Shown here in pieces: positions 5,007 through 64,000 of a stretch of 64,000 nucleotides of DNA. Position 1 is the first letter of the stretch. Every line of letters begins with the position of its first letter. This DNA comes from Alphaproteobacteria bacterium (GTDB taxonomy: Bacteria; Pseudomonadota; Alphaproteobacteria; Sphingomonadales; Kordiimonadaceae). The translations under genes were made by a program, and so were the position numbers. Location of the stretch: assembly GCA_013372975.1 (NCBI GenBank), contig JABXIS010000008.1:1-64000 (forward strand), written 5' to 3'. Below the pieces are notes generated by a model. It was given only the letters and a program-made list of their open reading frames with translations. It searched no databases and was not told the DNA's origin.

Positions 5007-6608
5007 ATGCAACATGCAGGCGTAACCGTTACGGCGAATGTTTCCCCCGACATGGCGGATATCCTGGGGCCAGATGCCCTCGGTTTTGTTGCCGAAGTAG
5101 AGCGTAAGTTTGGCGCGCGGCGGCGGGATCTGATGGCAGCAAGGGCTGCATACCAGAAGCGGCTGGATGGTGGGGAGCTCCCCCTTTTTCTCCCCGAAAC
5201 AGCTGATATTCGCAACCGTGACTGGACAGTCCGTCCTGCCCCCTCGCCCCTTCTCAAGCGTGCTGTAGAAATCACCGGGCCGGTCGATCGCAAGATGGTG
5301 ATCAACGCGCTGAACTCGGGCGCCGATTGTTTCATGGCCGACTTTGAAGACAGCTCCACGCCCACATGGGATAATATGGTCGGTGGCCAGATCAATCTGC
5401 GTGACGCGGTTGCGGGCACCATCAGTTTCACCAACCCCGCAAACGGCAAACAATATGCGCTGAATGACGACCACGCGGTGCTGCTGGTGCGCCCGCGCGG
5501 CCTGCATATGGAAGAAAAGCATGTGCTGGTGGACGGCAAACCTGTCTCAGCCGGTTTCTTCGATTTCGCGCTGTTTCTGTGGCATAACGCCAAAACGCAG
5601 CTGGCGAACGGTGTTGGCCCCTATTTCTACTTGCCCAAGATGGAACATCATCTTGAAGCCCGGCTGTGGGAAGAGGTGATTGCGTTCGCAGAAGACGAGT
5701 TGGACCTTGAGCGTGGTACTGTGCGTGTGACTGTGCTCATTGAAACCATCACCGCCGCTTTCCAAATGGACGAAATCCTTTATGAGCTTCGCGATCATAT
5801 CGTCGGGCTGAATTGCGGGCGCTGGGATTATATTTTCAATTTCATCAAACGCTTTGCCCGTCGTGCGGACTTCGTGCTGCCAGACAGGGCCCAGGTTGGC
5901 ATGGACCAGCATTTCCTTACGTCCTATAGCCAGCTTCTGGTGCAAACCTGCCATAAGCGCGGTGCGCATGCCATGGGCGGCATGGCGGCGCAGATCCCGA
6001 TCAAAAATGATGAAGCCGCAAATGCGGCCGCAGTGGCCAAAGTGCGTGCCGACAAGGAGCGCGAGGCAAAAAATGGCCATGACGGCACGTGGGTGGCGCA
6101 CCCGGGCCTGATCCCGGTCGCGCGCGAGATATTTGACGCCCACATGCCTGGCCAGAACCAGCTGGATACCCTGCGCAAGGATGTACAGGTCACAGCGGAA
6201 GACTTGCTCAAGCTACCGAAGGGTACGATCACCGAAGCGGGCGTGCGCGGCAACATCAATGTGGGGTTGATGTATCTGGCGGCGTGGCTTGACGGTATGG
6301 GCTGTGTGCCCATCCATAACCTGATGGAAGATGCGGCGACGGCAGAGATTTCGCGCACCCAGCTTTGGCAGTGGCGCACTCACGGCGCGGCGTTGGATGA
6401 CGGCCGTATCATTAATGAAGCATTGATCGACGCATTCATGGGCGAAGAAGTAGCGGCGCTGAAGGATGTTGCCTTCACCGGGCGTAACCGGCTGGAGGAT
6501 GCAGCGGCCCTGTTCCGCTGCATGGTGATGGATGATGAACTGGAAGAGTTCCTGACCCGCCCGGCTTACGAACTGGTGCTGGATTACGAATTGGCTGACG
6601 CGGCCTGA
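5007..6608 (+). CDS. aceB: malate synthase A
   Basis: It condenses glyoxylate with acetyl-CoA to give malate. The 533 residues match the length of the A-type (AceB) enzymes rather than the longer G type. Characteristic blocks include ADFEDSSTPTWDN near 111-123, RGLHMEEKH near 166-174, the LIETITAAFQMDEI active-site segment near 247-260 and LNCGRWDYIF near 271-280. No isocitrate lyase is present; instead the gene sits with puuD and allA, whose pathway ends in glyoxylate. Here it most likely serves purine catabolism. The start is set by a strong GAGGAGG ribosome-binding site. Confidence 0.95.
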   Translation: MQHAGVTVTANVSPDMADILGPDALGFVAEVERKFGARRRDLMAARAAYQKRLDGGELPLFLPETADIRNRDWTVRPAPSPLLKRAVEITGPVDRKMVINALNSGADCFMADFEDSSTPTWDNMVGGQINLRDAVAGTISFTNPANGKQYALNDDHAVLLVRPRGLHMEEKHVLVDGKPVSAGFFDFALFLWHNAKTQLANGVGPYFYLPKMEHHLEARLWEEVIAFAEDELDLERGTVRVTVLIETITAAFQMDEILYELRDHIVGLNCGRWDYIFNFIKRFARRADFVLPDRAQVGMDQHFLTSYSQLLVQTCHKRGAHAMGGMAAQIPIKNDEAANAAAVAKVRADKEREAKNGHDGTWVAHPGLIPVAREIFDAHMPGQNQLDTLRKDVQVTAEDLLKLPKGTITEAGVRGNINVGLMYLAAWLDGMGCVPIHNLMEDAATAEISRTQLWQWRTHGAALDDGRIINEALIDAFMGEEVAALKDVAFTGRNRLEDAAALFRCMVMDDELEEFLTRPAYELVLDYELADAA

Positions 6609-61231: not shown

Positions 61232-62449
61232 ATGACCATCGGCGTAGGCGGCTCTAGCGTAGCGGCGGAACTTGAAAAATTGAGCGACATGACAGCGGGC
61301 GTAGTGCCCATTGGCATGGACGAGATCAAAGGCCGCCTCGACAAGGCCGTTCAGTTGATGGCTGATGCGGGCATGAAAGCCGTCTATCTGAACGCTGGCA
61401 CCAACCTCTATTATTTCACTGGCACTCGCTGGTACGCGTCCGAGCGCATGGTTGGTGCTATCCTGACAGCAGGGGGCGAACTGCATTATATCTGCCCGGC
61501 CTTCGAGATTGGCACAGTGAAGGATTTCATGGGTGTTGAAGGCACCATTCACGGCTGGGAAGAGCATGAAAGCCCCTACGAATTGTTTGGTGTGTTGCTC
61601 AAGAAACTGGGGATCGAAGGTGGCACTATTGGCATCGATGAAAGCACCAGTTTTGCCATGTCAAACGGGGTACGGCTCGCGAACCCGCATTATGATTATG
61701 TGGATGCCAAACCTGTAACAGCCGGGTGTCGGACCCGGAAATCGGCGGCTGAAATCGCCCTGATGCAGCGCGCGATGGACATGACGCTTGAAGTTCACAA
61801 AGCCACTGCGCGCATCCTTCAAGAAGGCATGACAACGGCGGATGTGAAGGCCTTTATTCAGGAGGCGCACAAGCGTGTGGGTGCGCCGAAGGGCAGCTAT
61901 TTCTGTATCGTTCTGTTTGGTGAGGCAACGGCTTTCCCGCATGGTGTCAGCTATGAACAGACACTCAAGAAGGGCGATGTGGTGCTGATCGATACAGGCT
62001 GCCAGGTGCATGATTACATCTCCGATATCACGCGCACCTATGTGTTTGGTGAGCCTAATGATCGCCAACGTGAAATCTGGAATGTGGAAAAGGCGGCGCA
62101 GGCTGCTGCTTTCAAGGTGGCACAGCTTGGCACACCATGCGGCGATGTGGATACGGCCGCGCGCTCATATGTGGAAAGCGCTGGATTCGGCCCTGACTAT
62201 AAAACGCCGGGTGTGCCGCACCGTACCGGCCACGGCATCGGCCTTGATATCCATGAGTGGCCCTATCTTGTACGCAGCGACCGCACGCCCCTTGATGTGG
62301 GCATGTGTTTCTCGAACGAGCCCATGATGGTGGTGGATGGCGAGTTTGGCATCCGCCTTGAAGACCATTTCTATATGGCAAGCGATGGCCCGCGCTGGTT
62401 CACCCAGCCCAGCCACAGCATTGATGATCCGTTCGGATATGAAACCTAG
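61232..62449 (+). CDS. cytosolic M24 peptidase (Xaa-Pro dipeptidase-like)
   Basis: The 405-residue protein has no signal peptide. It has a creatinase-N-like domain (LYYFTGTRWYASERMVGAIL) and the M24 catalytic domain with metal ligands in LIDTGCQVHDYISDITRTYVFGEP (aspartates), HRTGHGIGLDIHE (histidine), NEPMMV (glutamate) and RLEDHFY (glutamate). It is the cytosolic paralogue of the exported enzyme at 35856-37124. It likely hydrolyses proline dipeptides imported by the OPT and POT transporters. The ATG follows a GAGGGAC site and a GntR-like palindrome. Confidence 0.92.
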   Translation: MTIGVGGSSVAAELEKLSDMTAGVVPIGMDEIKGRLDKAVQLMADAGMKAVYLNAGTNLYYFTGTRWYASERMVGAILTAGGELHYICPAFEIGTVKDFMGVEGTIHGWEEHESPYELFGVLLKKLGIEGGTIGIDESTSFAMSNGVRLANPHYDYVDAKPVTAGCRTRKSAAEIALMQRAMDMTLEVHKATARILQEGMTTADVKAFIQEAHKRVGAPKGSYFCIVLFGEATAFPHGVSYEQTLKKGDVVLIDTGCQVHDYISDITRTYVFGEPNDRQREIWNVEKAAQAAAFKVAQLGTPCGDVDTAARSYVESAGFGPDYKTPGVPHRTGHGIGLDIHEWPYLVRSDRTPLDVGMCFSNEPMMVVDGEFGIRLEDHFYMASDGPRWFTQPSHSIDDPFGYET

Positions 62450-62515
62450 GTGAGCTTAGGTTTACTTGCCTCCTTCCCGACCTCGTGTTGGAATATTTGG
62501 CAACGGGAGGACGCA

Positions 62516-63097
62516 ATGATGAAATTTCTAGCAAGATCGATATCCATCGTTCTTTTTGCACTGCCTTTGCTGGCGGTTCAGGCCAACGCACAGGACCAAG
62601 CGATCCTGTATCAACCTGATCCGGACAGTCCAATTGGGGAACGCAATCCCAAGGCGCCGCCTGAAACGGCACAGTTTGATTTTGTGATTGGCGATTGGGA
62701 CATTGACATCACATATACACCCGCAGGCGGTAAGCCATTTTCCTATAAGGCAAAATGGCACAATCACTGGGTTGTTGACGGGCATGTTGTGATGCAGGAA
62801 TGGCGTGGGCCCTACTCCACAGGTGCAGAGTTCCGATTCTTTGATCCGCAAAAGAAACGCTGGATCGGTCAAAATGTGTACACCGGTGCCAAATGGCAGG
62901 AGACAAGCGCTGAGTTTGTAGACGGGAAGATGTATATCTACAGTTCACAGTCAGATGCTGATGGAGATTTTCTGGCCCGCGAAACCTATTATGAAATTGG
63001 ACCTGACAGTTTCAAGCTGAAGGCGGAAGTTTCGCGCGACAATGGCAAGAGCTGGCAGGCTGGAAAATACACTTTGGTGGCGACACGGAGCCTCTGA
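62516..63097 (+). CDS. secreted DUF1579-like protein
   Basis: The 193-residue protein has a signal peptide (FLARSISIVLFALPLLAVQANA) followed by a beta-barrel-like domain of DUF1579-type proteins: FDFVIGDWDIDITYTPAGG, VVDGHVVMQEWRG and YYEIGPDSFKLKAEVSRDNGKSW. The function is not known; relatives are predicted lipocalin-like small-molecule binders. The ATG at 62516 follows a GGGAGG site at 62505-62510 and is preferred to the ATG at 62450 because the signal peptide begins here. Confidence 0.75.
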   Translation: MMKFLARSISIVLFALPLLAVQANAQDQAILYQPDPDSPIGERNPKAPPETAQFDFVIGDWDIDITYTPAGGKPFSYKAKWHNHWVVDGHVVMQEWRGPYSTGAEFRFFDPQKKRWIGQNVYTGAKWQETSAEFVDGKMYIYSSQSDADGDFLARETYYEIGPDSFKLKAEVSRDNGKSWQAGKYTLVATRSL

Positions 63098-63098
63098 T

Positions 63099-64000
63099 CT
63101 ATCGCGTGCCTTGCGCGGTTTCTATATGGATGCAATCGGTGTCGGGCATGAACCCCGACACTGCCGCCTGCCACACCGCTTCAGAATAATCTGCTCCTGT
63201 GGGCTTCACGGCCATTGTTTGCTGCGGCAGGCAAAACTCCATCAGAAACTCGGCTTGTCCGGCAGCTTCCAGCAGTTGGCCAGTCAGCACATCGATTTTG
63301 GGCCTGATCTCATCAGCCAACGAGGGCACTTCTGTGAAGGCCGGTTGGTTGTGTGCGGTCCATGCGTCAAAAAGCTCCTGCTGCAATAGTTTGGACGCGG
63401 CCATCTGCATTGAAACCGCCTTGCGCGCGAACGCCGGGTCAAGGTCCATCTTAGTAGCCCTTCGAACGGTAGCGTCGATGATTTTTGCCTCCCGCTGGGG
63501 CGCTTCAATCGGCAGCTTGTTGTTCCACTTATAGCGGGCGACATCGGCCATCACCGCAAGACGGTTCGCGATGGCGTGGCGTAGGGCTGCAACCTTCAGG
63601 TTGTGATCTTGCTTTGGTTTGCTGAAGCTGACGGACAGGGATTTGCTGTCTGCAAGGCTTACCTTGATCACCTGATCGTAAACATCTTCCCCGGCATATT
63701 TGAGCGTGGAATTCGCCAGCAGATTGGCAAGGTGGGGTGTTGTGTTGCTGTGCCCCACAACGAGGAATGTACCGTCTTTCGCTTTCAACTCTGCCGCAAA
63801 CTCTTCAAGCGCACGCGGGTCATAAATCGAAACTGGCAGTCCCGCCATTTTTGCGGTGGGTGCTGCGGTTTGCCGTGTGCGTTTGTAGTTGGTGGAGAAA
63901 ACGGCGGTCAGGCCTCTATCCGCCAGATAGTGCGCAATCCACTGTGCCCGCTCATGGCCCGCGGGCGTCAGATCCGGGTCCCGCGTGCCGTCGGATGCTT
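63099..64000 (-). CDS. histidine phosphatase fused to AroQ-gamma chorismate mutase (5' end missing)
   Basis: The frame stays open from base 63998 to the stop at 63099, so the gene begins beyond the window. The N-terminal part is a histidine phosphatase domain of the SixA/phosphoglycerate mutase-like type: LTPAGHERAQWIAHYL, STNYKRTRQTA and VVGHSNTTPHLANLL; its RHG motif would lie outside. The C-terminal part (about 180 residues) matches the gamma class of chorismate mutase: RHAIANRLAVMADVARYKWNNKLPIE, REAKIIDATVRRA, and DPAFARKAVSMQMAASKLLQQELFDAW. That class is normally exported. No stop, frameshift or start-site signal separates the two parts. The domain calls are firm for the fold families; a joint function is unknown. 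Confidence 0.75.
   Translation of the reverse strand, partial: ASDGTRDPDLTPAGHERAQWIAHYLADRGLTAVFSTNYKRTRQTAAPTAKMAGLPVSIYDPRALEEFAAELKAKDGTFLVVGHSNTTPHLANLLANSTLKYAGEDVYDQVIKVSLADSKSLSVSFSKPKQDHNLKVAALRHAIANRLAVMADVARYKWNNKLPIEAPQREAKIIDATVRRATKMDLDPAFARKAVSMQMAASKLLQQELFDAWTAHNQPAFTEVPSLADEIRPKIDVLTGQLLEAAGQAEFLMEFCLPQQTMAVKPTGADYSEAVWQAAVSGFMPDTDCIHIETAQGTR

Follow-up and report, generated by a model that had tools for sequence, protein, structure and literature searches.

The DNA analysed here (the window) comprises the first 64,000 nucleotides of contig JABXIS010000008.1 (assembly GCA_013372975.1), from an alphaproteobacterium of the family Kordiimonadaceae. At its far end, a minus-strand reading frame without a stop codon extends across positions 63099–63998 and remains open to the window end. 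The contig reaches 82,665 bases, and the gene is complete there (contig 64100–63099, minus strand; L002 2100–3101, minus strand). Its ATG lies at contig position 64100, 100 bases past the window, and the product is a protein of 333 amino acids followed by a stop codon. The window encodes 299 of the 333 residues, and the first catalytic motif of the phosphatase described below falls outside it, R30 and H31 of LVRHAE being encoded just past its end. The features are listed in Table 1.

Table 1. Features of the fusion gene and its neighbours, with related fusions in other genomes of the class. Positions are those of the window unless stated otherwise.
Feature	Position	Strand	Remarks
Fusion gene, in-window part	63099..64000	-	whole gene contig 63099–64100, 333 codons plus stop
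Histidine phosphatase (branch 1) half, in-window part of residues 23–158	63627..64000	-	
His_Phos_1 Pfam match, residues 26–92	contig 63825–64025	-	50.3 bits (cut-off 21.7)
His117 codon, presumed second catalytic histidine (VVGHSNTTP)	63750..63752	-	invariant in 15/15 aligned sequences
Junction/linker, residues 159–172, FSKPKQDHNLKVAA	63585..63626	-	site of phosphatase stop and mutase leader in G010
AroQ-gamma chorismate mutase half, residues 164–333	63102..63611	-	profile matches
CM_2 Pfam match, residues 173–241	63378–63584	-	47.9 bits (cut-off 27)
C-terminal segment between Cys290 and Cys323, presumed disulfide	63132..63233	-	conserved in mutase subfamily
M24-family peptidase, convergent neighbour	61232..62449	+	anchors locus in G000, G001, G010 and G011; G006 partial at contig end
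Gene of 215 aa or less, convergent neighbour	62450..63097	+	signal-like N-terminus, no Pfam match
Mutase–dehydratase-like fusions	L053, L055, L056, L057, L058, L137		genomes G322, G358, G262, G219, G135, G780

A first-pass annotation, made from the letters of the window, had read this frame as a histidine phosphatase joined to an AroQ-gamma (AroQγ) chorismate mutase, and the domain models agree with that reading. A Pfam scan of the fusion gave His_Phos_1 and CM_2, both over their curated cut-offs, and nothing else; no dehydratase (PheC-like, SBP_bac_3) domain was found in the frame. The NCBIfam model for gamma AroQ, TIGR01806, scored 81.5 bits with the 299 amino acids within the window (cut-off 74.15), and 84.4 and 92.4 bits with the corresponding proteins of two relatives, G001 and G010.

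The phosphatase half carries the branch-1 pattern LVRHAEK…RTRQT…GHSNTTP. The RHG-type motif expected beyond base 64000 is there as LVRHAEK, and the VVGHSN reported earlier is confirmed. R30, H31, E33, R74 and H117 are invariant in all 15 aligned phosphatase sequences; R30, H31, R74 and H117 we take to be the catalytic residues, as in the family at large. With a score over the Pfam cut-off and the Arg-His…Arg…His set in place, this half belongs to branch 1 (PF00300). The RHA…R…GHS pattern is common to the fusion and the branch-1 superfamily (SixA, CobC, phosphoserine phosphatase, phosphoglycerate mutase), and a profile of the phosphatase family reached 4ij5, which is phosphoserine phosphatase 1, and 4hbz, a SixA-like chain. 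Compared with that superfamily, however, the phosphatase half is compact and bears a leader, and it fits no named equivalog: the NCBIfam models for PspA, CobC, GpmB and RNase H/acid phosphatase gave at most 38.5 bits against cut-offs of 162.9–350.

The mutase half was aligned with 13 relatives. R180, K191, R203, K237, Q240 and R266 are the same in all 14 sequences. Using the active-site list of the Mycobacterium tuberculosis holotype in PMC10520331, and mapping its positions onto the fusion ourselves, we found 5 of 10 positions identical: Arg49, Lys60, Ile67, Arg72 and Arg134, corresponding to R180, K191, I198, R203 and R266. At the position of the holotype's Asp69 the fusion has Ala200; the residue is Ala in G010 and Asp in G001. 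Of the mutase motifs noted in the first pass, LPIE is present, and the arginine motif is too, with a different spacing: what had been given as R-x6-R-x8-KW reads R174-x5-R180-x10-KW (or R180-x8-R189-Y-KW). Judged from the alignments, the putative catalytic residues of both domains are largely kept. The monofunctional exported AroQγ mutases (M. tuberculosis 2fp1/2fp2; 6cnz; 2gbb) share the domain family with this half by sequence, but they have no fused phosphatase, and the fusion differs from them in the Ala at the Asp69 position. The 2gbb enzyme is presumably that of Y. pestis.

The fusion begins with a signal-peptide-like N-terminus, MKPIHQLAFALLLFCLAPQVAA, which by eye resembles a Sec leader with cleavage near A22. 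The leader belongs to the phosphatase half, and LVRHAEK comes after it. Past the leader there are two cysteines only, C290 and C323, and the G001 protein likewise has two. All 13 aligned mutases that lack a dehydratase domain keep both; the 14th sequence, a mutase–dehydratase fusion whose aligned cysteine sits in its other domain, is left out of this count. In the secreted mutase of M. tuberculosis, a C-terminal disulfide is thought to stabilise the protein (PMC10520331); the fusion, too, has a cysteine pair near its C-terminus. The cysteine pair supports an oxidising compartment as the probable location of the protein. We infer export from the leader of the fusion itself and from the leaders of its unfused relatives. 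Branch-1 histidine phosphatases are mostly cytoplasmic. The first-pass suggestion of an exported two-domain enzyme thus keeps its footing in the leader-like N-terminus, whereas its premise that both domains usually act outside the cytoplasm was too broad for branch-1 phosphatases.

To place the fusion in its genomic context, we compared the locus in the window's genome (G000) and its relatives. The gene order is an FAD enzyme (HI0933-like), an exported-looking alpha/beta hydrolase, the phosphatase, the mutase and a convergent M24 peptidase. In G010, all of these genes are present, and phosphatase and mutase are separate genes in the same order and on the same strand as in the fusion; the phosphatase stop TAA is followed by 5 bases and the mutase ATG, and each protein has its own leader. 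The linker of the fusion is the place where the G010 pair has the phosphatase stop and the mutase leader. The order in G000 is FAD enzyme, fusion, an extra 215-aa gene and M24 peptidase, with the hydrolase missing; in G001 it is FAD enzyme, a 935-aa gene, hydrolase, fusion and M24 peptidase. As read from the DNA, G006 has FAD enzyme, hydrolase and phosphatase and then runs straight into the end of the M24 gene, with no mutase. G011 has FAD enzyme, hydrolase, mutase and M24 peptidase, with no phosphatase. The extra 215-aa gene of G000 has a leader-like segment after an internal Met and ends one base from the stop codon of the fusion; it was not found at the corresponding spot in G001 or G010. 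A 47% relative of it lies near a phosphatase gene in G002. A formate–tetrahydrofolate ligase gene also neighbours the fusion.

The G001 fusion is a stop-free frame of 332 amino acids at the same locus in the same genus, 47% identical to that of G000 over residues 10–323. A missed stop or a frameshift at the joint, which the unfused neighbours in G010 could bring to mind, is therefore extremely improbable: the second species has an independent, full-length frame through both domains, and reading of the joint in either fusion (G000, G001) found no leader-like remnant. The G001 fusion in practice refutes such an artefact. Separate genes elsewhere had been named beforehand as a sign of error. They were found in one relative (G010), and two more keep one half, but since G001 is fused, the separate and single genes are best read as other states of the locus and not as mistakes in the sequence.

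A tree of PyrG proteins (29 rows, of which G014, G015 and G024 are partial proteins) paired G000 with G006 (100/97) and G001 with G011 (100/98), both starred. rpoB had matches in 24 of 29 genomes; as neither the window's genome nor G001 was one of these 24, it was dropped as a species marker. Based on the differing states of G000, G001, G006, G010 and G011 and on these pairings, assembly or dismantling of the phosphatase–mutase pair takes place at a single site. Since G006 has the phosphatase only and G011 the mutase only, the pairing is evolutionarily loose, and each half can do without its partner. A grouping of G000 with G001 could not be rejected for either half (p-AU 0.151 for the mutase, 0.383 for the phosphatase); the gene trees of the halves are too poorly resolved to tell one origin from two. 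The fusion may have arisen once, with later domain losses and a split in G010, or twice from an adjacent pair.

The same observations bear on whether the joining of the halves has any consequence. Two unrelated exported proteins could have been joined by loss of a stop codon, with no functional gain: the genes in G010 are 5 bases apart, sister species keep one half only, and no catalytic benefit from joining was detected in the known mutase–dehydratase enzymes. Against such an accident, two species on separate branches of the pyrG tree carry the fusion, and at 47% identity they still retain the main active-site residues in each domain. We consider a neutral fusion unlikely, though it retains some plausibility.

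The distribution of the fusion is narrow. Searching 98 genomes (its own included, and 29 of them from the family) with the whole protein gave matches in 46, and a full-length, stop-free match in one other, G001, which is thus the one further genome found with the two-domain architecture. Among the 19 genomes of the genus (own included), the halves are fused in 2 (G000, G001) and adjacent as separate genes in 1 (G010), while 8 have a mutase that is not beside a phosphatase. Seven of these 8 have a distant phosphatase (G003, G005, G012, G013, G014, G016, G018), and G011 has a mutase without any phosphatase match. No mutase match was found in the remaining 8 (G002, G004, G006, G007, G008, G009, G015, G017); four of these genomes have a completeness of just 76–83%. 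Outside the genus, the mutase half gave only weak matches among the 98 genomes (E 3.7e-5 or worse, in 4 genomes), so in this sample the AroQγ gene looks confined, as far as its order is concerned, to this one genus.

In five species of the genus (G003, G005, G013, G014, G018; loci L038, L039, L041, L209, L210) the AroQγ gene lies in a second conserved neighbourhood, whose other genes are of ubiD, glyoxalase-like and M20 peptidase-like type according to family scans of G018. The gene beside the mutase in these species encodes 502–514 amino acids; it is UbiD in G018, and the others begin alike. In G014, a 401-aa frame lies between the mutase and the 502–514-aa gene.

In wider sampling, 289 genomes of the class yielded 9 with an AroQγ match over the cut-off, and 398 of the phylum yielded 17, both counts including the window's genome. 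All of these genes lie within the 223 loci retrieved in the searches, which cover the weaker matches in part; the 2,781 open frames of at least 90 amino acids in these loci were compared with mutase, phosphatase, cupin and dehydratase references. Mutase and phosphatase shared one frame in the loci of G000 and G001 only. A mutase–cupin frame was found in L033 only, and mutase–dehydratase frames in six genomes of the class. In a plasmid search, 5 records matched a single domain each, and no record reached 80% coverage of the fusion. A scan of genome contigs, sensitive to close relatives only, confirmed one relative, the cupin–mutase MAG. No description of a phosphatase–AroQγ pairing was found in a literature search, as judged from part of its listings, and the word 'phosphatase' is absent from the main text of PMC10520331. 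The chain with a histidine phosphatase and an AroQγ chorismate mutase is genuine, rare and exported-looking.

The L033 frame (5533–6477, plus strand) belongs to a Hyphomicrobiales MAG; its product of 314 amino acids has a leader-like N-terminus and joins Cupin_2 to AroQγ. As in the window, the mutase is C-terminal of another domain, and the mutase halves of the two proteins are identical at 63 of 161 positions; the N-terminal partner, however, is a Cupin_2 domain and not a phosphatase. No second cupin–AroQγ fusion was seen among the loci retrieved from a 385-genome search of the class. In G220 (L052 1399–1962 and 2335–3276, plus strand), an AroQγ gene is followed on the same strand by a gene for a phosphonate-type periplasmic binding protein.

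Among known systems, the nearest counterpart is the exported fusion of chorismate mutase with cyclohexadienyl dehydratase, represented by AfCMCDT, JbCDTCM and DsCDTCM (PDB 8cq3, 8cq4, 8cq6; PMC10520331), in which an exported AroQγ and a second exported enzyme likewise form one chain. When our mutase half is compared with solved structures, three of the four best matches are such fusions. Four active-site positions of the fusion have changed relative to the M. tuberculosis enzyme: Q76→I207, T105→S236, E106→K237 and E109→Q240. According to PMC10520331, the usual residues of the mutase–dehydratase fusions at these positions are V, S or A, K and Q, so that T105S (CDTCM type), E106K and E109Q are alike. 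They differ from our protein in that the C-terminal cysteine pair, present here, is not conserved in them, and in that the Asp69 position is Ala here. The main difference is the partner, a histidine phosphatase in place of a dehydratase, and the fusion therefore does not supply the next pathway step. A histidine phosphatase is thus a new and rare partner for a known kind of exported mutase fusion. PMC10520331 limits the mutase–dehydratase fusions to nine species, all of them gamma- or beta-proteobacterial. The six mutase–dehydratase-like fusions found here (422–466 aa, start codons as called) are from the window's own class, Alphaproteobacteria, and would extend that range; two of them, in G219 and G358, were checked against solved structures and match known fusions and dehydratases.

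What the phosphatase–mutase chain does may be framed as follows. We think it probable that the protein is an exported two-module enzyme which converts chorismate to prephenate and hydrolyses a phosphate monoester, with the modules acting in parallel, and that it arose from two adjacent exported genes. A Sec-type leader would send the chain to the periplasm. There, the C-terminal AroQγ module would convert chorismate to prephenate, a prediction with good support, and the N-terminal branch-1 module, by analogy with its family, would hydrolyse a phosphate monoester through a phospho-His31 intermediate. Because chorismate and prephenate carry no phosphate, the modules are not consecutive steps, and direct chemistry between them is unlikely. 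They would be made, exported and kept together in equal amounts, co-delivered rather than channelled. The single chain presumably came from neighbouring exported genes arranged as in G010, with the phosphatase upstream of the mutase, when the stop of the former and the leader of the latter were lost. Equal dosage and joint export have been suggested as gains for the known mutase–dehydratase fusions (PMC10520331) and, by analogy, may be the simplest gains of the phosphatase–mutase fusion. A tight functional link between the halves is disfavoured by the sister species with one half and the seven species with distant halves. Two further CM_2 genes over the cut-off in the window's genome suggest that the fusion mutase is dispensable for housekeeping phenylalanine and tyrosine synthesis.

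A periplasmic route to phenylalanine was considered for the window's genome and is not supported: no close cyclohexadienyl dehydratase was seen, the best match to a query whose own dehydratase activity is a prediction having 27.7 bits and 29% identity over part of the domain. The PmrA regulon of Salmonella is said to include aroQ and a periplasmic histidine phosphatase, an idea not used in this analysis.

Alternatively, the two modules could serve one pathway, the phosphatase acting on shikimate 3-phosphate or EPSP from lysed neighbours and the mutase removing chorismate, for salvage or sensing of leaked metabolites. The presence of the fusion in two species speaks for such sharing; exported mutase fusions have been proposed to detect chorismate from lysed bacteria (PMC10520331), and fusions of neighbouring pathway enzymes, including the periplasmic chorismate mutase–cyclohexadienyl dehydratase, are listed in PMC4921024. 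However, the named phosphatase models all scored far below cut-off and give no pointer to a substrate, sister species keep either half alone at the locus, and the window's genome lacks a close cyclohexadienyl dehydratase match. We regard a shared pathway as improbable, and keep to parallel, co-delivered modules as the preferred reading.

According to PMC10520331, the role of the exported mutase–dehydratase enzymes is 'still an enigma'. It would be a long shot, slightly longer than the shared pathway itself, that exported AroQγ mutases at large are part of a periplasmic processing or sensing of shikimate-pathway metabolites leaked from lysed cells, with interchangeable fused partners (dehydratase, histidine phosphatase, cupin) and the phosphatase acting on a phosphorylated intermediate. 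If true, such a periplasmic shikimate-metabolite system would hint at what exported chorismate mutases are for, a role long missing. Direct evidence on the working companions of an orphan exported enzyme is scarce, and a fusion partner is one such clue. The phosphatase alone, the mutase alone, the adjacent pair and the fused pair, all at one locus in one genus, provide matched material on whether the two activities are linked.
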